Virus record (IMG/VR): IMGVR_UViG_3300043464_001799 | Span: 1-21,133 of that record | Direction: 5' to 3' (one strand) | From: a virus | DNA: 21,133 bases | Part shown: piece after piece, positions 3,736 to 20,988 of the stretch | How positions within the stretch are numbered: the stretch's first letter is position 1 | Layout: each line of letters opens with the position of its first letter | Position numbers and translations under genes: made by a program | Notes under the pieces: generated by a model | The model's database searches: none | Told to the model about the DNA's origin: nothing | Seen by the model: the letters and a program-made list of their open reading frames with translations, nothing else

Positions 3736-4080
3736 ATGGCTGGTACGTATAATTTTACGATCGACCAAGGCTCCTCATATTCTACTTTAGTCACCTATAA
3801 GGATTCTACTGGTACGCCCATAAATCTTACTGGGATGACTTTACAAGGATATGCGAGAGCCAATAAAGAAGAATCAAAATCATTTGAATTTTCTTTTACT
3901 ATCTCTAATCAAACAACAGATCCTGGTGAGTTTTACATAACACTGGCTGCCTCTGTTTCATCTGCTTTAGATTTATCTAAGAATAATAAATTCTTTTATG
4001 ATGTTGAACTAACAAATGGATCAACAAAAACTCGATTGTTTGAAGGTATTATCACAATGACAAGAGAGATAACCAGATGA
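3736..4080 (+). CDS. Small Ig-like phage structural protein (BppU-N-like pattern)
   Basis: A 114-residue protein with the pattern YNFTIDQGSSYSTLVTYKDS ... PINLTGMTLQGYAR ... FFYDVELTNGSTKTRLFEGI, ending in a REITR tail. This is the widespread phage beta-sandwich module with an Ig-like fold, found next to fibres or fused to the N-terminus of baseplate and fibre proteins. GGGGTGAG precedes the ATG. The stop overlaps the next start (ATGA), so the two are probably translated together and the product may anchor or pair with the fibre that follows. Confidence 0.6.
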   Translation: MAGTYNFTIDQGSSYSTLVTYKDSTGTPINLTGMTLQGYARANKEESKSFEFSFTISNQTTDPGEFYITLAASVSSALDLSKNNKFFYDVELTNGSTKTRLFEGIITMTREITR

Positions 4081-5453
4081 ACGTAACGATCACAGAGACT
4101 AATAGTGTGGTCGAGGTTCAAGAAGTTTCTCCAAACGAAATAATAATTAACCAACAAGAAATACTAATTACTATTACTGCAAGTGGCGCACCTGGACCGA
4201 CTGGAGGAACTGGACCGCAAGGAAATCCTGGACCTGGAGTTGCTGTTGGTGGAACTACTGGTCAAGTATTAACCAAAATAGATAATACTAATTATAATAC
4301 TCAATGGACAACTCCAGCCACAGTCATAACAGACCATACTTTACTCAGTAATATCGGAACTAATTCACACGCACAAATAGACTCTCACATTTCATCTATA
4401 TCTAATCCTCACGCAGTAACAAAATCTCAAGTTGGATTGGGAAATGTTGATAATACTTCTGATTTAAATAAACCAATTTCAACAGCAACTCAAACAGCAC
4501 TAGATTTAAAAGTAGATGAGAATGCAGCTATCACAGGCGCAACAAAAACTAAAATTACTTACGACTCTAAGGGTTTAGTTACTGCAGGAACTGATGCAAC
4601 AACAGCCGACATAAACGATTCATCTAACAGAAGATATGTGAGTGATGCCCAATTGGTTGTAATCGGAAATACAAGTGGAACGAATACAGGTGATCAAAAT
4701 TTATCTGGCTATGAACTTCTTTCAAACAAAGCAACAGACTTAACAGTTTTAAATAATACTTTATATCCAACAACCCAAGCTGTTCAATCGGCTTTAAATG
4801 CGGCAATAACTACAACTCCAGTCTATATGTTATCGGGTGTAAATTCCGACATATCTGGGTATGAATCAGCCGTTGCACTTGCAGGTTTTACATCTGGAGC
4901 ATTGGCAACTATATCTCAAACAGTAACGACATCAGAAACTTTAATAGAAGAGTTTGCTACTAACTTGGGTTTTCCAAATACTACCGCTCTTCCGGTAGGT
5001 TTGTTTTCAGCTCATTATGAGATGCAAAAATCTGGATCGAGTCAATTGTACTATTCTTATTTTAAAATATTTAAAAGAAATAGTGGTGGAACCGAGACTC
5101 TTTTACTTACTTCGGACAATTCATCTCAAACAAGTTCAAACTCAATAGAACAAATAGACCTTAATGCTTTTAATAGTGCAATCATTCCATTACTTACAAC
5201 GGATAGAATAGTTTTAAAAATTTACGCAAGAATGGTTACAGGCTCACAATCAATAGCTCTAAGATTTGATGACAATACGGACGCGAGAATTCAACTTCCA
5301 GGATCTTCATTAACTTACGTTCCTGAGAATGTTGCCAATAAATCAACAGATGGAAATCTAACAGCTAACTCAACAACATTATATCCATCTCAAAGTGCAG
5401 TTAAAGAATATGTTGATTTAAAAACTATCGTAAATGCTTTAATTTTTGGATAA
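4077..5453 (+). CDS. Collagen-like fibre protein
   Basis: A 458-residue fibre. After a beta-rich start it has six Gly-X-Y triplets (residues 37-54, GAPGPTGGTGPQGNPGPG), a short collagen-like trimer stem. Residues 106-145 carry the common tail-fibre motif NPHAVTKSQVGLGNVDNTSD followed by NKPISTATQTALDLK. Residues 217-241 and 421-446 are two copies of an NK-x-TD ... LYP-x-x-AV motif that flank a beta domain (about 244-416) ending in TDRIVLKIYAR and IALRFDDNTDARIQLPG, which looks like a fibre head. The gene overlaps the previous one by four bases. Its place right after the capsid genes, away from the tail-tip genes, makes a head fibre or neck whisker as likely as a tail fibre. Confidence 0.7.
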   Translation: MNVTITETNSVVEVQEVSPNEIIINQQEILITITASGAPGPTGGTGPQGNPGPGVAVGGTTGQVLTKIDNTNYNTQWTTPATVITDHTLLSNIGTNSHAQIDSHISSISNPHAVTKSQVGLGNVDNTSDLNKPISTATQTALDLKVDENAAITGATKTKITYDSKGLVTAGTDATTADINDSSNRRYVSDAQLVVIGNTSGTNTGDQNLSGYELLSNKATDLTVLNNTLYPTTQAVQSALNAAITTTPVYMLSGVNSDISGYESAVALAGFTSGALATISQTVTTSETLIEEFATNLGFPNTTALPVGLFSAHYEMQKSGSSQLYYSYFKIFKRNSGGTETLLLTSDNSSQTSSNSIEQIDLNAFNSAIIPLLTTDRIVLKIYARMVTGSQSIALRFDDNTDARIQLPGSSLTYVPENVANKSTDGNLTANSTTLYPSQSAVKEYVDLKTIVNALIFG

Positions 5454-5462
5454 GGTAGATAT

Positions 5463-7610
5463 ATGAAAATTACACTAGATCAATTACAATTTACTTTCAC
5501 CCCAACTTCTAATCTTATTTCTTTTGATAATATGCTTGGAGCATTTGAGCCAGAAAGATTGCTAGCTGTAATTAATACCACGACTGGAAAATTAGTTTAT
5601 GCATCAGCATCTCAACCTAGTGGCTTTGGTGGGACATTTGCAAGTGGAACTTACACAAATTCTCAACTTACTTATGCCTCAAGTAATACAGGTCAATCTG
5701 CATCTGATATTCTTCAAGTTCTTTACGACAGCGAGACCGCTTCGCAAAACATTTCGGCTTCAGATGGTACGCAGATACTAACTACAACAGATGCAATGAG
5801 TCTCCAGGAAGGGTTAAATGTTAATATGCTTAACTCATCTTTTGGTGGTCAAGTTGGTAGCTCAATCCCGATCCCTAATAACAACAACGCTCTTTCAATG
5901 GCTTTTCTTAATGGATCAGTATTATCAACTCCAAAAATGGATCCTGTTACAAATGAGCTTATTGTACAAACCAACGCCATACCGCTTCAAGACGTAAACA
6001 TTACGCAAGTAGGATCAACTGCCATTGGAGCAAACTTACCAATTGATATTGCGGCTCAATCTCTTGGAAATGTTAGTACCAATGTTAATTTTTCAGGTGT
6101 TGCGGCTGCAACAAATATTGGAGCAAACTCAACCGGATCTCTTAGAACTTCATCAAATATCGCATTAAACGGCACAAACGTAACAGCTTCACTCGGAGCC
6201 AATGACTCTGGTACGATTAGAACTTCATCTAATATTTCCTTTAATGGTGTTGCGGCTGCAACTCAAAGTGGTACGGCTACAACCGGAACTCAACGAGTAA
6301 TCATTGCAACAGATCAGCCAGTCTTACCTTCCAACATCAGTCAATACGGTGGAGTTTCAACAACTTTAGGTCAAAAAGCAATGACCTCCTCAATGCCAGT
6401 TGCAATTAGCTCGGATCAATCAACACTAAATACTTCTCTTCCTGATCTATATATCTCTGGAGCTCCAAATAGTGCGGCTGGAAATAACAATCTTCTTGCT
6501 GTTGCCGGTCCAGGGGAATTGGATGTTTCTGGTTATAAATCTGCATCTGTCCAAGTAATCTCTACAGCAACCTCAGGTACATTTATTTTTGAAGGAAGTA
6601 ATACGCCCACAAGTGCAACTTTTCAAGTTGTCCCGGCTTTTAGAATTGATTCAGCCTCTCCAAATGCGATTGTGACAGCAATAACAGCAACTAACAGCAA
6701 TCTTATGTACATTATTCCTGTTCGCTTCAGATATATGAGAATGCGAATTGTTACTGGGTTAAGCACACCTGTTCAAGCATTAACAAGATTATCTCAAGAT
6801 CCATTCACTCCTTCCGTATCAAACGTGATTAATGCAACAGCCGGAAACCTTAACTGTACAGTTGTGGGTTCACTTACTTCAGTGGGATCTGTTACATCAC
6901 TTGGTACTGTTACCACTGTAAGTACCGTAGCATCAGCCTCACTAGCTGCAACGACCATCACGGATATTGCCTCGGCTGCAATCACTACGACTCAGACCTC
7001 CGCAAACATCCTCACTGGTAACCAGCAGAACATGGCGTTTCAGGTTGGGGTTAGCGTTGTGTCTGGCACAAATCCAACTCTTGATGTAGTCGTCCAGGAG
7101 ACCTTTGACGGAACCAACTACTACGACATCTATCACTTCCCAAGAATTACAGCGATCGGGCAGTATCGCTCTCCGCAGATTAGAACAACTGGATCTGGTA
7201 TCAGATATGTCAGAACCGTAGGCGGTACAACCCCATCATTTACCAATTCGGTTGTGCGCCCTGTGCGTCAGACCTCATCCGATCTTTTCCGTAACTTCTT
7301 TGATCGCACACTTAATCCAAATACTTTGAGCTCAACAACTGCAACATTTTTTATGGACGGGTGCGATCAAATACAGCTCTCTGTGACTATGAATGCGGGT
7401 GGTACAGCTCCGATTATTAAAATGCAAGGGTCGGAAGATAATAGTAACTGGTATGATCTTCCCTCTATGTCGATCACTGCTGCGGTAGGTGCAGTCACCC
7501 AAATCATGAGCAATGCTACCTCAATGCCAAGATTCGTAAGAAGTATTGTTTCAGCGGCTGGGGTTGGGTCTTCACTTTTATATGTCGATATGAAAGGGCG
7601 AGGTGTTTAA
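5463..7610 (+). CDS. Large repetitive beta-rich virion protein
   Basis: A 715-residue protein of a general phage structural type. Residues about 35-90 have a beta module (AVINTTTGKLVYASA, ASDILQVLYDSE). Residues 208-282 hold three units of exactly 25 residues containing NG/SGVAAAT and RTSSN. Residues 465-490 are a Gly-Ser-Val-Thr repeat (GSLTSVGSVTSLGTVTTVST). Three similar beta-sandwich domains follow one another at about 357-445 (VQVISTATSGTFIFEGSN), 522-603 (LDVVVQETFDGTNYYDIY) and 633-715 (IIKMQGSEDNSNWYDLP), each with an 'R-[FY]-[VM]-R' end strand. The design suggests a fibrous or surface-displayed protein. The DNA for the C-terminal third is clearly richer in GC than the rest. Function beyond structural is not known. 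Confidence 0.65.
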   Translation: MKITLDQLQFTFTPTSNLISFDNMLGAFEPERLLAVINTTTGKLVYASASQPSGFGGTFASGTYTNSQLTYASSNTGQSASDILQVLYDSETASQNISASDGTQILTTTDAMSLQEGLNVNMLNSSFGGQVGSSIPIPNNNNALSMAFLNGSVLSTPKMDPVTNELIVQTNAIPLQDVNITQVGSTAIGANLPIDIAAQSLGNVSTNVNFSGVAAATNIGANSTGSLRTSSNIALNGTNVTASLGANDSGTIRTSSNISFNGVAAATQSGTATTGTQRVIIATDQPVLPSNISQYGGVSTTLGQKAMTSSMPVAISSDQSTLNTSLPDLYISGAPNSAAGNNNLLAVAGPGELDVSGYKSASVQVISTATSGTFIFEGSNTPTSATFQVVPAFRIDSASPNAIVTAITATNSNLMYIIPVRFRYMRMRIVTGLSTPVQALTRLSQDPFTPSVSNVINATAGNLNCTVVGSLTSVGSVTSLGTVTTVSTVASASLAATTITDIASAAITTTQTSANILTGNQQNMAFQVGVSVVSGTNPTLDVVVQETFDGTNYYDIYHFPRITAIGQYRSPQIRTTGSGIRYVRTVGGTTPSFTNSVVRPVRQTSSDLFRNFFDRTLNPNTLSSTTATFFMDGCDQIQLSVTMNAGGTAPIIKMQGSEDNSNWYDLPSMSITAAVGAVTQIMSNATSMPRFVRSIVSAAGVGSSLLYVDMKGRGV
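6084..6308 (+). repeat. Three tandem 75-base units within the 715-residue protein gene
   Basis: Units are 6084-6158, 6159-6233 and 6234-6308, each coding 25 residues. The 17-mer GGTGTTGCGGCTGCAAC occurs exactly at 6096-6112 and again at 6246-6262, two periods (150 bases) apart; TTAGAACTTCATC is shared by units one and two. The third unit diverges in its second half. Confidence 0.8.
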
Positions 7611-7774
7611 TGTTTACAATATGGAAAAAAGTATCTGATGAATCTTGGGAGTTTGTAGAAGAAATTCAAGATTATCTTGCAATACCACAAAGGCTTATTG
7701 ATTTAAGGTTAGACGGTAATGAATATAGAGTAGAAAAAAAGGACGGTGGTTTCTCTACCGTTTTGGAGGTTTAA
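7610..7774 (+). CDS. Small 54-residue protein, unknown
   Basis: Begins with MFTIWKKVSDESWEFVEEI and ends KKDGGFSTVLEV, 54 residues. The ATG shares its A with the previous stop codon (TAATG), so translation is probably coupled to the large protein before it; the next gene starts immediately after its stop. It is charged and has three aromatic residues in the first 14. It may be a partner or chaperone for the preceding fibrous protein, because a similar small gene follows the 805-residue fibre at 17771, but that is inference. No family is recognised with confidence. Confidence 0.7.
   Translation: MFTIWKKVSDESWEFVEEIQDYLAIPQRLIDLRLDGNEYRVEKKDGGFSTVLEV
7743..7761 (+). other. Hairpin with short T run at a gene junction
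   Basis: ACGGTGG and CTACCGT pair (one G-U) around a TTTCT loop, followed by four T bases (7761-7764) and directly by GGAGGT of the next gene. It lies in the end of the 54-residue gene. The short T run makes it a weak terminator at best; it could be an RNA-processing or attenuation element, or chance. Confidence 0.3.
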
Positions 7775-8044
7775 ATGCCTGTTAATGAATTTATAGCGAT
7801 ATCTGCAAATTTAACTACTGAAGAAACTACTATTCTTGATTCATGGGGTGATGCTGAATCACAACTTTCTACCTCAAGCGCACCATCAACAGCTTTTTTA
7901 GAAATCCAATGGGATGGAAGTCGCATTACAAGAGTTTTTGATGGAGTTCAAGTTTCATCGCTAGGTCGATCAGAACAATTAAGACTTTATCCACAGCTTG
8001 GTGGGCTTTTTAACTTAGCAATTAGAAATCTGCTTTACCCTTAA
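7775..8044 (+). CDS. Unknown 89-residue protein
   Basis: Starts right after the previous stop with GGAGGT four bases upstream. N-terminal half is Thr/Ser/Glu-rich (TTEETTILDSWGDAESQLST), C-terminal half has FLEIQWDGSRITRVFDG, SSLGRSEQLRLYPQLGGL and a hydrophobic end FNLAIRNLLYP. No signal peptide. I do not recognise a family. The C-terminal layout (E-I-x-W, then S-S-L, then acidic or basic helix with LYP or YLP) loosely matches the next gene, suggesting a possible distant duplication. Lying among virion genes, it is probably structural or an assembly helper. Confidence 0.65.
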   Translation: MPVNEFIAISANLTTEETTILDSWGDAESQLSTSSAPSTAFLEIQWDGSRITRVFDGVQVSSLGRSEQLRLYPQLGGLFNLAIRNLLYP

Positions 8045-11219: not shown

Positions 11220-11510
11220 ATGAACGAAATACAAACTGCTAAAGGTGTTCTTAAGTACAGAAATCCGACAGTGTTGGAAAATATGGAAATGCTCAAAGCT
11301 TCTAGGGAATTCTTTAAAAATGAAGACCCTTTAGGAGCTAAGATTGAGATTATTAAACACCTTAAGCCACTGTTAGATTATTCTTCTTTAGACGGCATTA
11401 CTTGCTTCGAAGAACTTAATCAATATGGCGATGAGATGACTATGCCACTTAGTGATATTGCAGATCAAATTTTAAGTAAAGTGGCAGGTGCATTCTCAAA
11501 AAAGAATTAA
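11220..11510 (+). CDS. Tail assembly chaperone, short form (gpG-like)
   Basis: A 96-residue soluble, helical protein lying between the major tail protein and the tape measure, the fixed place of the G/GT chaperones of long-tailed phages. It reads MNEIQTAKGVLKYRNPTVLE at the start and ends in KKN just after the A AAA AAG slip site. Both G and GT forms bind the tape measure and bring tail protein to it during assembly and are normally not in the finished virion. The Shine-Dalgarno is AAGGGGA a few bases before the ATG. Confidence 0.8.
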   Translation: MNEIQTAKGVLKYRNPTVLENMEMLKASREFFKNEDPLGAKIEIIKHLKPLLDYSSLDGITCFEELNQYGDEMTMPLSDIADQILSKVAGAFSKKN

Positions 11511-11821
11511 TCCCTGATGCGATAAACGCAATTAAGCAGGGGTTAAAGAAAGAACAATTAGAAAGGTTTGTTGAGAAAGAAAAGCTCGACAACATATATG
11601 AAGCAATAAAAGATGTTCATGACTACCTTGATTTAAAGTCAATTTTAAACCTTGGTCTTCAGATTCATCATAGTGAAATTCCCTTCGAGAAGATTTTAAT
11701 TTTCTCATGGATAAAAGAGGAATTAGATGGCAGAGGACATATCGTTTCGACTGAAGGTGATAGACGACAAGCTAGCAGTAGCTTTGGATCAAAACACTCA
11801 AAGAGCAAAAGGTCTAAGTGA
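11220..11821 (+). CDS. Tail assembly chaperone, -1 frameshift form (gpGT-like)
   Basis: Ribosomes slipping back one base at 11498-11504 read codon GAA at 11504 next and continue to TGA at 11819-11821, giving about 200 residues (95 from the G part, 105 from the T part). The T part is helical and charged (ELIPDAINAIKQGLKKEQLE ... DVHDYLDLKSILNLGLQIHH ... IFSWIKEEL), with no ATG start of its own after a suitable binding site, so it can only be made by frameshift. The last 31 residues overlap the tape measure gene by 95 bases and are Ser/Lys/Arg-rich (SKHSKSKRSK). In lambda the T part binds the tail tube protein. Confidence 0.85.
11486..11546 (+). promoter_or_regulatory. -1 programmed frameshift signal
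   Basis: Slip heptamer A AAA AAG at 11498-11504, in frame as TCA AAA AAG AAT TAA, the same heptamer as in E. coli dnaX. Downstream TTAATCCCTG (11507-11516) pairs with CAGGGGTTAA (11537-11546) over ten base pairs with one U-G; the stable part begins at 11511, six bases after the heptamer. A small TGCG/CGCA hairpin sits in the loop. Upstream AGGTG (11486-11490) may act as the Shine-Dalgarno-like stimulator. Confidence 0.9.
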
Positions 11822-13745
11822 TACTCTTAAGATTGCCGCTGGTACCTTCGCTGGTAACATTGCCATTAAAGGATTTGACCTTTTAGGTGATGCAATCAAG
11901 GGAGCAACTGGTTTTCTATTCGATGCCGTAGCCGCTTCATCTGAATCCGAAACAGCATTAAACAATTTACAAAGTGCACTAGAAAGAACAGGTCAAGCCA
12001 CCAAAGAAAACATTGATTCATTTAAAGCATTAGCCGAAAGAATTCAACAAACTACTGCATTTGAAGACGATGCTGTTGTAAGCGCAGGGGCTTTAATTCA
12101 AACATTGGGTAGACTTAGTGGTGAAGGATTAAACAGAGCAACCGATGCAGCTGTAAATTTAAGTGCAGCACTTGGGATTGATCTTGAAAGTGCAGCCACA
12201 TTGGTTGGTAAAGCAGCTAATGGAAACGTAACAGCTCTTCAAAAACTTGGAATTGAAGTTAAAAAAGGTATCACTGATTCTGAAACTTTTGCCAACACAT
12301 TAAAGATTTTAGAAGACAGATTTAGCGGATCGGCTGCAGCTCAAACAAAGACATTTGCAGGATCTTTATCTCAATTAAAAAATGTATACGACGATGTTCT
12401 CGAAGGAATTGGCGGTGTAATTACTTCCAATCCTGCAATCATAGCTGGGTTTAATACTTTAAAAGTGGTTGTTGTTGATTTAGGTAAAAGATTAACAGAA
12501 TTATTTCAAGATCAAAGTTCGATAAAAGGATACGTTGATGGAATACTTACTGCTTCACAATTCATTATCGATGGTTTCGATGGAATATTCAGAGTGGCTA
12601 GTGCTGTTTTTAATGGGATCACTCTTGTTATTAATGGATTTTTAGCAACATACCTTGGAGCTGTTTCAACAATTATAAACGCAGCAACTAATATTCCTGT
12701 TGTTGGTGAGAAATTTAAAGGTGCGGCTGAGGTTGCACAAAATGCATTTGAATCATTTAGAGAATCTGCAGAACAAGACATACAAGACGTTAACAATGCA
12801 CTGACAAGTGGTAATGCATTTACAGCTATAAGTGACGGTATTGGTAACGCTAAATCAAAATACAATGAATTTTTTGAGCAAGTAAAAGCCAAAGCTCCAG
12901 AGCTTAAAAACAATTTAACTCCAGGATCAGATACATCAACACAACAAGATGCTGAATCAATAAAAAGAACACAAGCATTAAAAAGTTCTTTATTAGAATT
13001 AGAGCAACAATTTGCTGTTGAGAAACTTGCTTTAGATGAAGCTAATAGACAGGCTGATGACCAAAGATTTTTTACTAGATCAGAAGAGGATATAGTTAGA
13101 CTTCAACAGTTTGAGCAACAAAAACTAGACATTAAATTAGATGCTGCTTTGAGAGCGGCTGATGCGATTGCAGTTCCTCAAGAAAAAGAACTTGCTAGAC
13201 AAAAAGCTTTTCAACAAAGAGAAATAGATGGGCTAAAAGTTACTCAACAAACTAAAGCACAAATTAGACAACAAGACATTGCCAATCAAGCGGCATTTTT
13301 CGGGGCTGCCACGTCACTTGCAAGTTCAAAGAATAAAGAATTAGCTGCAATTGGTAAGGCTGCAGGCTTAGCAGAAATAGCAATAAAAACTCCTCAAGCT
13401 TTTGCTTCATCATACGCATTTGGTACTAAGATTGGCGGTCCAGTGACAGGTGCTATTTTTGGTGGAATTGCTGCAGCTGCAATGGCTGCTCAAGCTTCAC
13501 AGTTAGCAGGCGTGAAAGGTTTTGAATCAGGCGGTATTATTGCTGGAAACTCTATGACTGGTGATAATTTGCTAGCTAAGGTTAACTCAAAAGAAATGGT
13601 TCTAAATCAAGATCAACAAGCTAACTTATTTGAAATGATTAAAAACGGATCATCCGGAAGTCAACCTATAGTTGTTCAAATAGATGGTGTTGAAGTTTTT
13701 AGAGCTGTTAGAAATCAACTTAATAGTGGGATGAAATTCGCATGA
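11727..13745 (+). CDS. Tape measure protein
   Basis: A 672-residue protein with AGAGG six bases before the ATG. It determines tail length and travels with the DNA during infection; 672 residues imply a tail of about 100 nm. The N-terminus has the typical ISFRLKVIDDKLAVALDQNT and an ETALNNLQSALERTGQAT helix; TLGRLSGEGLNRATDAAVNL and ALGIDLESAATLVGKAANGN are standard for the family. Hydrophobic stretches occur at about 285-330 (FNGITLVINGFLATYLGAVS) and 570-590 (GAIFGGIAAAAMAAQAS). A long coiled coil lies at about 410-510. The C-terminus has FESGGIIAGNSMTGDNLLAK and NSKEMVLNQDQQANL, the usual end motif. It overlaps the GT chaperone frame and the next gene (ATGA). Confidence 0.9.
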   Translation: MAEDISFRLKVIDDKLAVALDQNTQRAKGLSDTLKIAAGTFAGNIAIKGFDLLGDAIKGATGFLFDAVAASSESETALNNLQSALERTGQATKENIDSFKALAERIQQTTAFEDDAVVSAGALIQTLGRLSGEGLNRATDAAVNLSAALGIDLESAATLVGKAANGNVTALQKLGIEVKKGITDSETFANTLKILEDRFSGSAAAQTKTFAGSLSQLKNVYDDVLEGIGGVITSNPAIIAGFNTLKVVVVDLGKRLTELFQDQSSIKGYVDGILTASQFIIDGFDGIFRVASAVFNGITLVINGFLATYLGAVSTIINAATNIPVVGEKFKGAAEVAQNAFESFRESAEQDIQDVNNALTSGNAFTAISDGIGNAKSKYNEFFEQVKAKAPELKNNLTPGSDTSTQQDAESIKRTQALKSSLLELEQQFAVEKLALDEANRQADDQRFFTRSEEDIVRLQQFEQQKLDIKLDAALRAADAIAVPQEKELARQKAFQQREIDGLKVTQQTKAQIRQQDIANQAAFFGAATSLASSKNKELAAIGKAAGLAEIAIKTPQAFASSYAFGTKIGGPVTGAIFGGIAAAAMAAQASQLAGVKGFESGGIIAGNSMTGDNLLAKVNSKEMVLNQDQQANLFEMIKNGSSGSQPIVVQIDGVEVFRAVRNQLNSGMKFA

Positions 13746-14506
13746 GTAATTCATTAAGATTTTACGTGGATAATTTGGTTGATCAATCAACAATAACAGC
13801 ATCAACAGAAAATGCATTATACCCAACTGAGAATTTACAAGATCCAAGAAGAACAAAAGTATTTAGAAGTACAACAAACTCAGATTCAATTGTATTTGAT
13901 TTTGGAGAAACTTCTAATATTGATTCTATAATGATTGTTGATGGTCCGGATGGATTGGGTGTATCGGCTGTTACTTTAGAACTAAATGGAACGAACACTT
14001 GGGGTGCACCTGCATTTTCTCAAGTTGTAACATTAACCACAACTCACGGTGTTTCATATGCAGAGTTCGCTTCCCAGTCTTATCGTTTCGCTAGGCTTGT
14101 ACTTACTTCCACTCTTGGTTATTGCGAGCTTAGTAAAGTATTTTTGGGACAAGCACAACAAATAGGTGTGGATAGATCAGTTCAATATAATTGGTCATAT
14201 CAGTCTAAAGAGTTAAGTAAAATTCAAGAGAACCAATACGGCACTAAATTCATTGATATTATATCAAGACAAAAGCAAATAAATTTCTCAATTAATCTTT
14301 TAGATAAAGATGAACTTGATGACATATTTGAATTATACGACACAAAAGGAATATCTAAGCCATTCTTTATGCGGCTTGGTTGCAATGAAATAAGCAACGA
14401 TTTTAAAAGATACTCTGGAATGTTTTATTTAAACTCAATTCCACAAATAACAAACTCCTCTTTTAATAGATACAATTTAAGTATGTCTTTAGAGGAAGCA
14501 AAATGA
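13742..14506 (+). CDS. Distal tail / tail-tip protein with discoidin-like domain
   Basis: A 254-residue protein overlapping the tape measure stop by ATGA. It starts with a strand and TASTENALYPTENLQDPRRT, followed by SDSIVFDFGETSNIDSIMIV, the pattern of F5/8C (discoidin)-like beta-sandwich modules common at phage tail tips. The second half has NWSYQSKELSKIQENQYG, INLLDKDELDDIFELYDTKG and a C-terminal FKRYSGMFYLNSIP, typical of the first protein laid on the tape measure end. Its place directly after the tape measure supports a distal tail or minor tail role connecting tube and hub. Confidence 0.65.
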   Translation: MSNSLRFYVDNLVDQSTITASTENALYPTENLQDPRRTKVFRSTTNSDSIVFDFGETSNIDSIMIVDGPDGLGVSAVTLELNGTNTWGAPAFSQVVTLTTTHGVSYAEFASQSYRFARLVLTSTLGYCELSKVFLGQAQQIGVDRSVQYNWSYQSKELSKIQENQYGTKFIDIISRQKQINFSINLLDKDELDDIFELYDTKGISKPFFMRLGCNEISNDFKRYSGMFYLNSIPQITNSSFNRYNLSMSLEEAK

Positions 14507-14955
14507 GTACACTTCTCGTTAATCCATTATCAACAACACTTGAACAGGAATTTACCCTTGATAACAACTATAGATATGACATTGGTTCTTTTGCTCCTTA
14601 TTTGTATGTCCACAATGCACCATCAGGGACATTTACATTTGAACTTATCGAGGGTGTTACTACACTTCAAACATGGTCTTTCTCTTCAGAAGATATAAAA
14701 ATATCCTTATCTACTGCCAACAATTTCCTGCACGTATTTTACCCCTTGACGAAACCCTACCCTTATCAACTGAAGAGAGGGACATTTAAACTCAAGTTAA
14801 GTGCAACAGGATATTCCAATACAATTTCATCTTTTATTGGATGGATACAACAACACGAAAATTTAAACAATGAATTATCTTATACGCCTTTTAATGACGA
14901 AGAGAATCCTTTGGCTATAAGATTAAAAGTATACAAGGAAGGTATCAATGCCTAG
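14503..14955 (+). CDS. Unknown 150-residue tail-region protein
   Basis: Starts in an ATGA overlap with AGAGGAAG just upstream. Sequence is beta-rich: EQEFTLDNNYRYDIGSFAPY, APSGTFTFELIEGVTTLQTW, FKLKLSATGYSNTISSFIGW. No signal peptide or Cys. Probably a small jelly-roll or sandwich component of the tail tip or a fibre attachment. I do not recognise a family. It shares its end with the next gene by an eight-base overlap. Confidence 0.65.
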   Translation: MSTLLVNPLSTTLEQEFTLDNNYRYDIGSFAPYLYVHNAPSGTFTFELIEGVTTLQTWSFSSEDIKISLSTANNFLHVFYPLTKPYPYQLKRGTFKLKLSATGYSNTISSFIGWIQQHENLNNELSYTPFNDEENPLAIRLKVYKEGINA

Positions 14956-15355
14956 GGTAATTTCATTCGCAGATGGATTCACATCCTCAAGCGCACCAAC
15001 CATTTCTAGTGGATCAGAAGAATCATTCACATTAAATAACAATCAAGCTGCAACTAATATTGGAATTGACTTAAGTGGATACCGAGCGGCATTTGTAAAC
15101 TATTCTATTAGACGATCTGATACAGTCACAACGGTTGAGCAATCTGGTGATATTGTTTTTCATTATGATGGAGCGGCTTGGAATATCGAGAGAGGTAATT
15201 ATGTTGGGGATTCAGTATTGGCTGATTCAATTGTAAATACATACGATGTTGTTTTATCAATGTCTGGCACTAATGTTAGATATGCTACTGGGAATATGGT
15301 CGGTGGAACTCATACTTGTACGATTAAAATGGAAATAGTGAGGCTTTCAACATGA
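14948..15355 (+). CDS. Small beta-sandwich protein of the fibre region
   Basis: A 135-residue protein with a strong AAGGAAGG site (14935-14942). The pattern GIDLSGYRAAFVNYSIRRSD, QSGDIVFHYDGAAWNIERG, VVLSMSGTNVRYATGNMVGG resembles a small protein found beside phage fibre genes in many genomes, probably a beta sandwich. It overlaps the previous gene by eight bases and the following signal-peptide fibre by four, so it is likely produced with the fibre and may form its base. Function inferred from neighbourhood only. Confidence 0.6.
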   Translation: MPRVISFADGFTSSSAPTISSGSEESFTLNNNQAATNIGIDLSGYRAAFVNYSIRRSDTVTTVEQSGDIVFHYDGAAWNIERGNYVGDSVLADSIVNTYDVVLSMSGTNVRYATGNMVGGTHTCTIKMEIVRLST

Positions 15356-17769
15356 AATTTTTAATAGCTTTTTTTCTAATATTCTTTGCTCTTAACATTA
15401 AGGCTCAACAAACGATTGATAAACTAAATGTTAAAGCCTTAAAACTTCCAAGTGAATCAACTTCACGAGCGGTTTTAATAGACGGAAGTGGGCAAGTTAA
15501 AGCAAGCTCAACAGTATCAGACACCGAGTTAAGTTATCTTGATGGATTATCTGCATCACTTACTTCTTTATTAAGTGGAAAAGAAAACACAATTTCTTTA
15601 ACAGCAAATAGAGCGGTTCAATCAAGTGGCGCTGGTGTTCTAGAAGTTTCTTCGGTTACTTCAACAGAACTTGGTTATGTATCAGGCGTTACTTCAGGAA
15701 TACAATCACAGCTTGGAGCTAAACTTTCAACAACTGGTAACGAATCAGCTTCAGGCACAAAAACATTCACTGGCAAACTAGTAACAAGCACAACTTCAAA
15801 CGGATCAATTCCATGCCCTGTAATGACTCAAGGACAGCGAGATGCAATTGTTTCTCCTGTTGAGGGTGATTGTATTTACAACAGCTCATCGGATAAAACA
15901 AATGTCTACACCGGATCAGCTTGGATTGTTGTTGGCTCTGGGGTTGGTGGGATTAATTACATTACAAATTCAGATATAGAATTAGATACAACTGGTTTTG
16001 CGGTTTATGCGGATGCTGCAGGTGTTGTGCCTGTGGATGGAACTGGTGGTAGCCCAAACGTCACAATCTCAAGATCGACAACAACTCCATTAAGAGATAC
16101 GGCTGATTTTAATTTTGTTAAAGATGCAGCTAATCGACAAGGGCAAGGTTTTAGTTATGACTTTACAATTGCAAGCGCAGATAAAAACCAATTATTAAAA
16201 ATAGAATTTGAATATGAGATTGTTAGTGGAACTTACGCAAGTAATGACATGGGAATTTTCATTTACGATGTGAGTAATGCCGTAATAATTAATCCATTGG
16301 TGAGTGATCTTCCAGGGTTATCAGGAACTCCAGGTAAGTTTATTTCTCAATTCCAAGCTACCTCTTCAACTTCATATCGCTTAATTGCTCATGTAAAAAC
16401 AACTTCCGCAAGTGCTTATACATTAGCGTTTGATACTTTTAAAGTTGGTCTTGAACAATATTTTGTTGGGACAATTATTACTGATCCAGTCTCTTGGACA
16501 CCTACAGGGTCAATGAACACCAACACAACTTATTCCGGTAAGTGGTGGAGAAATGGAAAGTTCATGGAAGGCTACATAAAACTAGACTTCACAGGTGCAC
16601 CAAACTCAACTTCACTAACAGTTAATTTACCTTCTGGTTACTCAATAGACACTTCATCATTATTAACAGCCGGAGCTTCTAACTCATTCACATTAGGGTA
16701 CGGAAATTTTCTTGATACTAGTGCGAACGATTATGCGGCACTATCTCTTGAATATTCTTCAACCACAGCTCTAGCAGTTAAAGTTTTTAGAACTGCTTCA
16801 ATAGCAAACATAGTCGATACAAAACAAGCATTCACCCAAGCTATACCTGTTACCGTTGCTAATACAGACGTAATGAATCTTTACTTTAAAGTACCTATCC
16901 AAGGATGGACATCCGCAAACGCAGCGACTCAAGGATTTGGTGTTGTTCCTTATGGTCACTATGCTGGGAACGCTGGCGAGTCTTTAACTTCATTGGTAAC
17001 AAATATTCCATTTGCCGCAATAGTAAATGATTCAACTGCATCTTTTAGTGGAGCAACTTTAACTATACCAGAAGCAGGGCTATATCTTATTAATGGTTCA
17101 ATAAGGGTAACAGTTGCAACAGCTGGAAGAATTAACTTATATGTTGGAGGAACTTTTCAGGGAGTAAGTAGTGGTGATAGCACATCAGCCACGATTAAAA
17201 GTTTTACTTTTTATTATTATTTCAGAAAAGGAGATGCCGTAACACTTAGATTAGATGATAACAAAACACTAAACAACACATCTGGAGATCATTACATTCA
17301 ATGGTCGAGAATTGATAAAAATATGTTTGGAATGAATCAGCAAGTTTTTGCTTCATACACAACAAATGCAGGACAATCAAATGCAGACGGTGCTTATACA
17401 ATAGTAAACTTTGAAGATAGAACAGACGACACTCATAACTCAGTAACTACGGGTGGATCATGGAAATTCACAGCACCGGTAGATGGTCTTTATACTGTTT
17501 TATCTAGTATTCAATTTGCTTCAGCTTCTTTCGCAGCCGGTGTATCATTACAAACTGGCTTATTTAAAAACAATGTTCAGGTCACACAAAATAGATGGAG
17601 AAAAGATGCCACTCAGTCTTTTGTGACACCTGCACCTACAATGAACCATACTTTAAAATTAAACGCTGGCGATTTTATTGATATAAGAGTTTACCAAGAC
17701 AGTGGTGGATCAAGATCATTATCAACAACTGGGATTGATAATTATATAACAATAATTAAGGAAAACTAA
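15352..17769 (+). CDS. Large fibre with predicted Sec signal peptide and C1q-like ends
   Basis: An 805-residue multi-domain fibre. Start is firm: ATGA overlap and GTGAGG eight bases upstream. Residues 1-18 (MKFLIAFFLIFFALNIKA) look like a signal peptide with cleavage before QQ. Residues 39-77 and 87-124 are two copies of a TELSYLDG / TELGYVSG fibre repeat. Residues 150-197 have two cysteines (156, 174) in the IPCPVMTQGQRDAI ... GDCIYN ... NVYTGSAW pattern. About 201-366 is a carbohydrate-binding-like jelly roll (TADFNFVKDAANRQGQGFSY), 378-525 another beta domain (KWWRNGKFMEGYIKLDF), and 545-655 and 665-805 are two C1q-like domains (TIPEAGLYLINGSI, KFTAPVDGLYTVLSSI). A receptor-binding role is likely. 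An exported form is unusual for a virion fibre. Confidence 0.7.
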   Translation: MKFLIAFFLIFFALNIKAQQTIDKLNVKALKLPSESTSRAVLIDGSGQVKASSTVSDTELSYLDGLSASLTSLLSGKENTISLTANRAVQSSGAGVLEVSSVTSTELGYVSGVTSGIQSQLGAKLSTTGNESASGTKTFTGKLVTSTTSNGSIPCPVMTQGQRDAIVSPVEGDCIYNSSSDKTNVYTGSAWIVVGSGVGGINYITNSDIELDTTGFAVYADAAGVVPVDGTGGSPNVTISRSTTTPLRDTADFNFVKDAANRQGQGFSYDFTIASADKNQLLKIEFEYEIVSGTYASNDMGIFIYDVSNAVIINPLVSDLPGLSGTPGKFISQFQATSSTSYRLIAHVKTTSASAYTLAFDTFKVGLEQYFVGTIITDPVSWTPTGSMNTNTTYSGKWWRNGKFMEGYIKLDFTGAPNSTSLTVNLPSGYSIDTSSLLTAGASNSFTLGYGNFLDTSANDYAALSLEYSSTTALAVKVFRTASIANIVDTKQAFTQAIPVTVANTDVMNLYFKVPIQGWTSANAATQGFGVVPYGHYAGNAGESLTSLVTNIPFAAIVNDSTASFSGATLTIPEAGLYLINGSIRVTVATAGRINLYVGGTFQGVSSGDSTSATIKSFTFYYYFRKGDAVTLRLDDNKTLNNTSGDHYIQWSRIDKNMFGMNQQVFASYTTNAGQSNADGAYTIVNFEDRTDDTHNSVTTGGSWKFTAPVDGLYTVLSSIQFASASFAAGVSLQTGLFKNNVQVTQNRWRKDATQSFVTPAPTMNHTLKLNAGDFIDIRVYQDSGGSRSLSTTGIDNYITIIKEN

Positions 17770-17770
17770 A

Positions 17771-17944
17771 ATGATAAAAGTAGAAATAAAACTTGAAGGA
17801 ATAATAACTAATGAAGGTGAGTTTGAAACTCAAGAGATAGCAGAGTCTTGGGTGAATGAATTATCTCAACCTTGGATGGGATTTAATTCCGAAGGCGATT
17901 ATGTTTTAAAAGAAGGTTATGTTGTGGAGTATATTGAAGAATGA
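17771..17944 (+). CDS. Small 57-residue protein, possible fibre partner
   Basis: Reads MIKVEIKLEGIITNEGEFE, then TQEIAESWVNELSQPWMG, and ends VLKEGYVVEYIEE. AAGGA at 17759-17763 precedes the ATG and its stop overlaps the tail hub start (ATGA). The EFETQEIAESWVNE part resembles small phage proteins that have a beta strand followed by an EEA-x-x-W helix. It is acidic. It follows the signal-peptide fibre directly, like the 54-residue gene after the 715-residue protein, so a fibre chaperone or assembly role is possible. No experimental family is claimed. Confidence 0.7.
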   Translation: MIKVEIKLEGIITNEGEFETQEIAESWVNELSQPWMGFNSEGDYVLKEGYVVEYIEE

Positions 17945-20460
17945 CTTATGCAATAGAAGCATCTAAACCACGCTCTGAAAAAGTAACACTCGCAACAGTC
18001 GAATGCGTTGATCAAGCCAAAGTTTTCACTCTTGATTCTGGTTCTCAATATTATAAAGATGTTAATTATTATGTCGTTGGTGTTAAGCAAGGAACCACTA
18101 CACTTGCGGCTGGCACACTCGCATTGGCTGCAGGTCAATACTATTTTAACCCATTAACTAAACGTCTTTACATTAGAATGACTGATTCATCTAACCCAAA
18201 TACAAAACAAGTATCAATCACGTACAGATTATTTTTTGGGACTGGAGAGTTTAATCTTCCATTTAACTTAGCAAGCGGTGAAGAGGTTCCATTTGATGGA
18301 AGAATTCAATCTATTGGTGGGCTCAAACAATCTCTTGACGATGAACAAGTAGGAACGGTTGTTGAGTCTAGCTCGTCTATTTCACTTATTAATCAGGATG
18401 GGTTTTTTGATGATATATACGACACCCTAATATGGGAAAATCAAGCTATTGAGTTTTACTCTTGGTTCCCCAATATACCAATTGCGCAATCAAGAAAAAT
18501 ATTCTCGGGAGTAATTGAAGAAAAATCATTTACCTCAAGTGTGGTAAACTTTAAATTAAAAGATTTTACTTTTAGACTAAGAGATAAATTAAACCTATCT
18601 TTATTCACAACTTCAGACGGTGATTTATCGGACTCGGATTTAAATACATACAAGACTAGAATTTATGGAAAAGTTAAACACTTAAAGACAATTGGCATTG
18701 ATAAAAATTTAGATAATGTTTCAAGTGCAATAACAGTGACAACTTCAATTGGATCTAACATACTTACTTTCTCTTCTTCGATTCTTGCGACTATATTTCC
18801 AGGGGATGAAATATTTTTTACATTAAATAATACCGAATACAAGTTTGGAGTGGATTTAATTACAAGCTCAACAACTGCCACAACTGCTAGTAATATTGAG
18901 ATTAATTTAACAGCTCAAGCATTTTTTATAAGACCAAAGACACCTTCAAGAAATAAAAATAGGGATTGGCATATTGCAGGTCACAAGCTACGTGCTCCAT
19001 CAACAACAATTACAAATGTATTTTCTGGTAATAGATTTGAAGTTGCATCAACTCTTGATTTATTTGCAGGGGATTTAATTGATGTTAATGGGGACAATGT
19101 TCTAATTAGAAGAATAACTAACAACATTATTACAACTGAAACAAATGTCACTCCAACTCCATCCGTATCAGATACAGTATCAAGAGAAGCCGTCAACGAT
19201 GTTTTCTTTGGAAATAAACGTCTTATAATTGATCGAGATTGGAGTCTAACAAATACCACTGAAGCTATTTTAAATATTGATCCATTGGCAGAATTTAATA
19301 TCACACCAGAGCGCAGTTTAGTCGGCACAAATTTAACGTTCACAAATGGCACTAGAAATATTACTTCATCAAGTGGCACATTAGACCTAAGAACAATATT
19401 AAAACCAAGAGATTGGGTTAGATCGTCTTCAATTACTCATACAACTTGGTATGAAATAAGCCAGGTTAATGAATTCTCAATTGATATTGTAACCACATTT
19501 GGTGGAACTACTGGAGCAACAACAGCTCTTTATAAAAATGTAGAATATATAAATGATGATTCATTAATAACAGTTTCAACTTATGGTATGGAATATTTGG
19601 GGGCATGGATAAAAACCCCTGCACAGTCTGTTAAGCATATGCTTCTTGTCGATTCTGGTTTTACTGCTATTGATACGGCAAGTTTCACAAAAGCTGATGC
19701 TATGTGCGATTACATAGTTTCGATCTCATTTGGCGGTGATCTTCCAGAAATCAGAGAATCAATTAACAAGATTAATAAATCAGTTTTTGGATCACTATAC
19801 ACTAACTCAAACTTTCAATTATCTTATTCAATTCTTAATTCTACCAAACCAGAATCACTTGCAGCTATTAAAGACGACGACATACTAAGTTTTGATGTTA
19901 CTTCAAAGAATAGTATTATTTCAGCGATAAGAGTTAATTACCGTCCATTTATTGACATCAATACGGGTGAAGAGACCTTTGAAGTTTACCAAGAATCAAA
20001 TTCATTTGTTAACCGTCTTATAGGAATAAGCAGAGATAGAGAAGAAACTATATATTTATTCGAAGATGATAAAGCTAAAATCATAGCTCAAAGAATAATG
20101 TTCTTTAATTCTCTAAGTACATCTAGGGTAAGAGTTAAAGCAAAAGCCAATATGTTTTTAACAAACCTAAATGATAAGGTTTATCTAAATTTAGATCGTC
20201 TTTATAAACGATATGGTGGAAGAGATAAGCTTAAAATAGGAATAGTTTCAAGCACCTCCAAAGATGGTTTTAGTTCTGAGATAGAATTTAACGACTTATC
20301 CAACATCTTTAATAGAGTGAATTGTATTGCGCCCAATACGGCTCAAGTTTATGCTTCTGCAACACGAGATGAGATTGCCAAAAACGCTTTTATATTAAAC
20401 AATAATACAGAAACTCCAGATGGAACTAATAATGAATTTGGATGTAATCTAATAGGATAA
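17941..20460 (+). CDS. Tail hub / baseplate-like tip protein
   Basis: An 839-residue protein overlapping the previous gene by ATGA. Residues 145-220 (SISLINQDGFFDDI, FYSWFPNIPIAQSRKIFSG, VNFKLKDFTFRLRDKL) match the N-terminal pattern of phage tail hub proteins, with FSGVI then a D-F-x-x-x-L-R-D strand. Residues 235-255 read YKTRIYGKVKHLKTIGID, the usual continuation. The middle is Ser/Thr-rich with beta repeats (DLIDVNGDNVLIRR). The C-terminal part (YGMEYLGAWIKTPAQSVKHM, SAIRVNYRPFIDINTGEETF, RVRVKAKANMFLTNLNDKVY) is a hub-like beta and helix region. Position after distal tail and fibre genes fits. It probably forms the trimer closing the tube. Confidence 0.7.
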   Translation: MTYAIEASKPRSEKVTLATVECVDQAKVFTLDSGSQYYKDVNYYVVGVKQGTTTLAAGTLALAAGQYYFNPLTKRLYIRMTDSSNPNTKQVSITYRLFFGTGEFNLPFNLASGEEVPFDGRIQSIGGLKQSLDDEQVGTVVESSSSISLINQDGFFDDIYDTLIWENQAIEFYSWFPNIPIAQSRKIFSGVIEEKSFTSSVVNFKLKDFTFRLRDKLNLSLFTTSDGDLSDSDLNTYKTRIYGKVKHLKTIGIDKNLDNVSSAITVTTSIGSNILTFSSSILATIFPGDEIFFTLNNTEYKFGVDLITSSTTATTASNIEINLTAQAFFIRPKTPSRNKNRDWHIAGHKLRAPSTTITNVFSGNRFEVASTLDLFAGDLIDVNGDNVLIRRITNNIITTETNVTPTPSVSDTVSREAVNDVFFGNKRLIIDRDWSLTNTTEAILNIDPLAEFNITPERSLVGTNLTFTNGTRNITSSSGTLDLRTILKPRDWVRSSSITHTTWYEISQVNEFSIDIVTTFGGTTGATTALYKNVEYINDDSLITVSTYGMEYLGAWIKTPAQSVKHMLLVDSGFTAIDTASFTKADAMCDYIVSISFGGDLPEIRESINKINKSVFGSLYTNSNFQLSYSILNSTKPESLAAIKDDDILSFDVTSKNSIISAIRVNYRPFIDINTGEETFEVYQESNSFVNRLIGISRDREETIYLFEDDKAKIIAQRIMFFNSLSTSRVRVKAKANMFLTNLNDKVYLNLDRLYKRYGGRDKLKIGIVSSTSKDGFSSEIEFNDLSNIFNRVNCIAPNTAQVYASATRDEIAKNAFILNNNTETPDGTNNEFGCNLIG

Positions 20461-20463
20461 TTT

Positions 20464-20988
20464 ATGCCTTTCGTTACCATACCTTCAGGTTCTATTGATA
20501 TTGGGGATCCAATCACCAAAGATTTATGGGACAAAGTTAAAGCAAACGAAGACGATTTAAACACAAGACTGACAGCCGTTGAAGGCTCCGCAGCGAAAAT
20601 AGAAGTTTTTGATGGGAATGTTTACTTAGGAGTATTGGCATCTACTCTTACGGGAATTTTTTATTACGTTGCAAAAGAAAATTTCACACTAACAGCTTGT
20701 CGATTAAGAATTTATGAAAAAGCTCCCATCACAGGTGGAACTTTAGAAATAGACGTAAAGGTTAATGGCACATTTAACGACACTGGTATGGCTTCGGTTT
20801 TTACAACTAGACCAAGTGTTAATTTTGCTACAGCTTCAGACTATGATTTTTCTACTAACCAGGTTTTTGACAATACAAAAATAAACATAACAGCTAACCA
20901 AGTTTTGCGAATTGATATTACATCGCTTCCATCAACGGGTGGATTTCTTGGAAAATTTTATTTACAATTTTACGGTGAGGTCTCTTAA
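20464..20988 (+). CDS. Tail appendage protein
   Basis: A 174-residue protein three bases after the hub stop, with a TAGGA site. The start IPSGSIDIGDPITKDLWDKV followed by KANEDDLNTRL is a familiar N-terminal trimer-forming helix of small tail-tip appendage proteins (the K-x-N-x-x-D-L-x-x-R pattern). The rest is a beta jelly roll (GVLASTLTGIFYYVAKEN, RLRIYEKAPITGGTLEIDVK, GGFLGKFYLQFYGEVS). It probably decorates the tip or binds the receptor. The next gene starts in a TAATG overlap. Confidence 0.6.
   Translation: MPFVTIPSGSIDIGDPITKDLWDKVKANEDDLNTRLTAVEGSAAKIEVFDGNVYLGVLASTLTGIFYYVAKENFTLTACRLRIYEKAPITGGTLEIDVKVNGTFNDTGMASVFTTRPSVNFATASDYDFSTNQVFDNTKINITANQVLRIDITSLPSTGGFLGKFYLQFYGEVS

Follow-up and report, generated by a model that had tools for sequence, protein, structure and literature searches.

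The window analyzed here, a 21,133-base virus contig from IMG/VR with a siphovirus-type module, carries in its tail region an 805-aa ORF (15352-17769, + strand) whose N-terminus has the form of a secretion signal. The preferred reading, to which we give a probability of roughly 45%, is that this ORF encodes a distal tail fiber that would be exported by the Sec pathway, probably be disulfide-bonded and dock onto the virion at lysis. The fibers of known tailed phages are assembled in the cytoplasm, as is the whole textbook virion, and we are aware of no tailed phage whose fibers are assembled in the periplasm. The initial annotation had pointed to a conflict between an exported fiber and the assembly of virions in the cytoplasm. 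This conflict is real. If the reading is true, part of the host-binding fiber crosses the inner membrane of the bacterium, which would not be expected of a tailed phage.

In the window, the capsid and tail-tube region is succeeded by the tape measure (11727-13745) and then by a series of tail genes. Directly after the tape measure lies a 254-aa gene with an F5/8C-like N-terminal part (13742-14506, +), followed by a leaderless 150-aa tail gene (14503-14955, +), a leaderless 135-aa gene for a probable fiber connector or adaptor (14948-15355, +), the fiber, an 839-aa probable tail hub gene (17941-20460, +), and a 174-aa gene. The fiber ATG is placed on the stop codon of the upstream gene in an overlap of the ATGA type (15352-15355, +), an arrangement for translational coupling, and a 4-nt overlap was present at 17 of the 21 junctions listed. 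Tail fibers of Caudoviricetes are expected in the tail module beside tail-tip genes, where both the window ORF and its relatives are located. In front of the tape measure, a tail-assembly-chaperone-type pair was found (11220-11727), in which a 96-aa ORF ends near the slippery CAAAAAAG (about 11497-11504); the -1 frame after it is open up to the tape measure start, comparable to the programmed frameshift of lambda G/GT. The window also contains other fiber-like genes, two of them leaderless and situated between the capsid and tail genes (4077-5453 and 5463-7610) and one at 20464-20988. The protein of 4077-5453 comprises collagen-like repeats and the stretch GLGNVDNTSDLNKPISTATQTAL, which is also present in the leader fiber of contig L006, and the shared stretch suggests module exchange within these phages. 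Homing-endonuclease-like ORFs occur among the tail genes of relatives (L213:9209-9763, L007:3744-4262, and L188:11759-12265), that of L213 adjoining the fiber adaptor.

The fiber begins with MKFLIAFFLIFFALNIKA followed by QQTIDKL. Residues 1-18 (15352-15405, +) have the anatomy of a Sec-type signal peptide, with K2, an unbroken hydrophobic run from F3 to L14, and the sequence NIKA followed by QQT, in which I, K, and A hold positions -3, -2, and -1 and signal peptidase I is predicted to cleave between A18 and Q19. The export signal that had initially been assigned to the first 18 residues is thus confirmed at the sequence level. M1 is the only in-frame ATG, GTG, or TTG upstream of the Cys155 codon and overlaps the upstream stop, so the leader is not a mis-called start; a second, leaderless product was ruled out on the same grounds. 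A frameshift fusion with the upstream gene was also rejected, since the two genes simply overlap as ATGA and no slippery run is obvious there. Leaders were scored with a rule of our own, which looks for a 10-residue hydrophobic window with K or R ahead of it, no acid, and small residues at -3 and -1. By this rule the fiber has the n-, h-, and c-regions and the allowed -3/-1 residues of a signal peptidase I substrate, and it is the only positive among the 22 window genes. Applied to 19 related contigs, the rule selected 13 of 211 ORFs, 11 of which are this fiber. The window fiber is very probably an exported protein. A lipobox of the T5 Llp type is absent, as +1 is Q19 and no Cys precedes residue 155, and no Pfam or NCBIfam match to a membrane anchor or an outer-membrane secretion domain was obtained for the window fiber. 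In three other leaders of the family a Cys lies near the cleavage region (LTAC in L032, IGSC in L035, and TAC in L021), and given this residue a few members might be lipoproteins.

The hydrophobic N-terminus might instead go unused for export: it could serve as an anchor of the trimer within the tail or the connector, or the signal could be too weak for a fast-folding fiber. Such a reading fits the established cytoplasmic assembly of tailed-phage fibers, but it is improbable in view of how the leader has evolved. In 18 other syntenic phages its sequence diverges while the charge, the hydrophobic core, and the small -1 residue are retained. Q is found at +1 in 19/19 syntenic fibers, a count that is somewhat favorable because Q was sought near the expected site. 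The leader is also tightly linked to a pair of cysteines farther along the fiber, and it is missing where fiber part and adaptor part form one protein.

This pair belongs to a neck domain, PCPVMTQGQRDAIVSPVEGDC (15769-15951, +), with the invariant Cys155 (15814-15816) and Cys174 (15871-15873), which are the cysteines of the mature window fiber. The initial annotation had correctly noted a pair and position 174, while its other position, 156, is in fact 155. When viral contigs were searched with a DNA pattern for the neck (PCPxMTxx[QE][RK]...GxC, two spacings), 35 stretches with 34 distinct necks were retrieved. The leader rule was passed by 31 of these 34 fibers, and by eye all 34 are leader-like; the three failures are L031, which has no basic residue, and L032 and L035, in both of which residue 2 is acidic. 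With its cysteines replaced, the neck (PRMTxxQRDAI..G..VYN) was accompanied by a leader that passed the rule in only 13 of 99 cases (Fisher p ~7e-16, computed as 31/35 with the chance match L050 counted as a failure). Beyond the neck, too, cysteines are more frequent in the leader/Cys-pair fibers than in leaderless Cys-less fibers, with medians of 7.6 and 3.0 per 1000 residues (p 7e-5). The co-occurrence of Cys pair and leader is what is expected of a protein folding in an oxidizing compartment, and the earlier suggestion that the two cysteines suit such a compartment is supported by it. Cys155 and Cys174 probably form a disulfide in the exported fiber.

The mature fiber would comprise residues 19-805 (15406-17766, +). 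It starts with a stalk-like stretch (15406-15768, +) holding two units of the type TELxYLDGLxxxLxxLLSGK, where residues 22-136 match phrog_16122, a virion structural protein. The tip region (15937-17766, +) consists of a beta-rich part and two C1q/TNF-like domains at about residues 538-604 and 684-788. It matches phrog_15750 and also BclA_C, the latter with E=1.8e-6, below its cut-off. C1q matches were also obtained with a low-confidence structural model of the tip (pLDDT 62.6), from which nothing beyond the C1q/TNF-like class was taken, and comparison with solved structures by sequence gave nothing significant for the tip. Fiber-type repeats and a receptor-binding-type tip are thus both present, the former with a PHROG virion structural match and the latter with BclA_C/C1q-like matches and a low-confidence model. 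Residues 196-805 recur in leader fibers of siphovirus and podovirus types and, with 35-43% identity, in one leaderless fiber (L002/L003). This suggests that the tip does the same job, the binding of cell-surface ligands, with and without a leader.

Relatives were also retrieved by a leader-blind scan, for which the 254-aa tail gene was aligned and the fiber was excluded. At each of the 46 viral loci obtained, the slot following the 150-aa and 135-aa genes was judged by hand; about 10 loci were too short to judge. A separate fiber fills the slot in 23 distinct phages of the window-like clade (the window, L006, L188, L189, L011, L191, L196-L199, L024, L201-L203, L207, L209, L210, L226, L214, L217, L221, L227, and L212), and it has a leader in 23/23. 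The rule is passed from the first start in 21 of them, the exceptions being L221, with no basic residue close to the N-terminus, and L212, whose leader requires a later start. These 23 phages are related to one another, so the counts are not independent events. In six further loci (L190, L193, L194, L195, L204, and L228) the cassette of 150-aa gene, 135-aa gene, and fiber is missing as a unit, and the 254-aa tail gene directly adjoins the 839-aa-type gene; the tail module can therefore do without the cassette. In more distant relatives (L215, L220, L222, L223, and L224/L225), the fibers are leaderless or an adaptor is fused to fiber material.

The 135-aa protein was modeled with AlphaFold from 18 sequences (pLDDT 84.7) and shows an N-terminal arm and a beta-sandwich. 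Its fold is best matched by a KP1 baseplate protein (Z 9.3), the tailspike of an Acinetobacter phage (Z 9.0), and T4 gp9 (Z 8.6), the connector of the long tail fibers, and C-terminal domains of phage tailspikes are among the matches; values of Z 8-9 indicate a common fold and not a function. The protein is a probable connector, and it may also be a short fiber by itself. Its N-terminal part is fused to leaderless fiber material in L215 and L224, and adaptor and leader fiber are separate genes in L214. A comparable arrangement was found with another tail type. In MW202898, a complete genome, and in contigs of podovirus type, the leader fiber directly follows a separate adaptor gene resembling the T7 gp17 N-terminal part; one PF03906 match exceeds the curated cut-off, and elsewhere the matches are weak or missing. 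MW202898 has no annotated fiber other than the leader fiber and its adaptor. Its cultured portal-protein relatives, Vibrio phage 1.182.O and Stenotrophomonas phage BUCT708, have a single leaderless fiber of ~890 aa with an adaptor-like beginning, in which PF03906 is not called by Pfam. The presence of fused leaderless fibers on the one hand and of separate adaptors with leader fibers on the other, in two tail types, indicates that the fiber has apparently been split; the distal part seems to be the one that bears the leader. In L021 and L030, two genes precede the leader fiber, one long and tail-tip-like, the other smaller and adaptor-like.

Several small genes accompany these fibers. Short holin-like genes are often found next to the leader fiber in podovirus-type contigs and MW202898. 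In many contigs a second small leader gene, in several cases with cysteines, directly follows the fiber (L016:2979-3545, L017:5531-5971, L023:6691-7122 and 7122-7964, L027:8747-9343, L032:5487-6392, and L035:10672-11538), and its product might assist the fiber in the periplasm, as a partner or as a chaperone. In other contigs the following gene is leaderless and encodes a protein of ~160-205 aa of the type MKKLLVK...YHPAIE... (L010:7825-8355, L025:9201-9818, and L038:1-477). This protein may be a cytoplasmic chaperone of fiber assembly, which would favor assembly into the virion.

The preferred reading of an exported and docking fiber can be put as a sequence of steps. The distal fiber, encoded apart from its connector and provided with its own Sec signal peptide, would be made late together with the tail genes. 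It would be exported across the inner membrane, losing its leader at the predicted site, and would fold in the periplasm as a trimer with the Cys155-Cys174 disulfide. Meanwhile, virions would be assembled in the cytoplasm with the leaderless connector only, which would be the 135-aa protein in the window and the T7-gp17-N-like adaptor in podoviruses. Lysis would then mix the compartments, and we infer that the fiber docks on the connector at this point. Docking is favored by the slot position, the coupling, the joint presence or absence of the cassette, the fused relatives, and the lack of a recognized anchor; points against it are the other fiber-like genes of the window (4077-7610 and 20464-20988), the absence of the cassette from six loci, the possibility that the 135-aa protein is itself a short fiber, the PF03906 matches of the podovirus adaptors, most of which lie under the cut-off, and the lack of a known precedent. 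More tentatively still, siphovirus- and podovirus-type tails may share a two-compartment virion, in which a cytoplasmic particle with its connector is joined at lysis by a distal fiber that has been exported and oxidized in the periplasm.

The main rival is that the fiber is exported and never becomes part of the virion. It would be periplasmic, displayed on the surface, or released at lysis, and receptors of the host, of debris, or of neighboring cells would be masked by its tip, with superinfection exclusion or a decoy as its role. This is somewhat less probable than docking. The leader and the Cys pair speak for it, phages without the cassette exist, and a second small leader gene often adjoins the fiber. 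There is a precedent in lambda Lom, a leader-bearing outer-membrane protein from the tail region (PMC12309495), and phages of P. gingivalis encode Q-rule leader proteins whose function is not known (PMC10367356). On the other hand, searches of the window protein gave no anchor, lipobox, or outer-membrane secretion domain; its gene, coupled to leaderless tail genes, is present or absent together with them; and in leaderless relatives fiber and adaptor part make up one protein. The initial annotation had suggested display on the host surface to block further infection or to bind other cells; the position of the gene and its fused relatives favor a virion fiber instead.

In the window clade, 78% of the genes have a Shine-Dalgarno match of at least 4 nt, compared with 39% after shuffling; in the calibration, Vibrio phage 1.182.O gave 81% and Flavobacterium phage 11b 15%. 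This use of Shine-Dalgarno sites indicates that the host of the window phage is probably not a member of the Bacteroidota. Q at +1 of leaders is the Q-rule of Bacteroidetes (PMC5837995), and high Q-values are found in some other bacteria as well (PMC5837995). A Bacteroidota host was considered from a match in a Bacteroidia MAG (L049) and rejected, as only a phage contig matches there and the Shine-Dalgarno use opposes it; L050 was discarded as a chance match in a GC-rich genome. No annotated phage of known host close to the window was found when annotated phages were searched by tail and capsid genes. A scan of genome contigs with an alignment of the fiber N-terminus returned no match, nor did a search of plasmids.

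The initial annotation had further proposed that the gene may be a recent capture of a host surface protein and that host proteins with the same domains should be looked for. The source could be an exported fiber similar to the Bdellovibrio MATs, or a protein with leader and neck from the Bacteroidota. MAT fibers are leader-bearing and phage-like, some of them with TNF-like tips (PMC10769870), and proteins with a leader and a neck without the Cys pair are encoded on Bacteroidota chromosomes (L177, L178, and L184). Cys-less-neck fibers with a leader and Q at +1 were also found in phages without Shine-Dalgarno sites (L082, L090, L122, and L167), and these and the Bacteroidota proteins indicate that exported neck-bearing fibers are broader than the window family. 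In two of these phages a small leader protein is encoded after the leader fiber (L090:9160-9774 and L082:8166-8780). Recent capture is nevertheless unlikely. The leader occurs in the same tail slot of the 23 distinct related phages, the tip is common to a leaderless phage fiber, and a search of 84,980 bacterial and archaeal genomes with the Cys-pair neck DNA pattern in one spacing returned nothing cellular, only the phage contig in the Bacteroidia MAG and one chance match. An ancient exchange with host fibers such as the Bdellovibrio MATs may have occurred.

Phage fibers and Sec leaders are each known, and no description of Sec-leader tail fibers conserved across several tail types was found in the open-access papers searched. 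Widespread Sec-leader fibers with a Cys pair would mean either that virions are finished outside the cytoplasm or that free receptor-binding fibers are secreted. Both outcomes can be tested experimentally and are relevant to host range, superinfection, and the exchange of fiber modules between phages and bacterial surface proteins.

Among known systems, the Bdellovibrio MAT fibers (PMC10769870) resemble the window fiber in having a signal peptide, a long fiber, TNF/C1q-like or other adhesive tips, and a likeness to phage fibers. MATs are encoded on the predator chromosome and displayed on its surface, whereas the window fiber is encoded on a tailed-phage contig, in the tail module. MATs also have a conserved beta-rich domain of ~130 aa directly after the signal peptide, while several phage members have ~20 residues between leader and neck; compared with MATs by description, the window has ~120 residues of fiber-type repeats after the leader, and in L198 the neck lies ~20 residues past the cleavage site. 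Lambda Lom shares a leader-bearing gene inside the tail region, but it is an outer-membrane beta-barrel and not a fiber. The Bacteroidota proteins and the phages without Shine-Dalgarno sites have the order of the window type, with a leader, Q at +1, and then a PRMTxxQRDAI neck; they differ in lacking the Cys pair of the neck and, for the phages, in genes without Shine-Dalgarno sites. The T7 gp17-type fiber with its PF03906 adaptor holds the same genomic slot, and in the podovirus relatives the gp17-N-like adaptor gene is directly 5' of the leader fiber. The window fiber has no match to an N-terminal PF03906 virion-attachment domain of its own, and in the podovirus relatives this part is a separate upstream protein. 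The T7-type fiber is one leaderless protein, whereas here a Sec leader is carried by the distal fiber, which is encoded apart from the adaptor.
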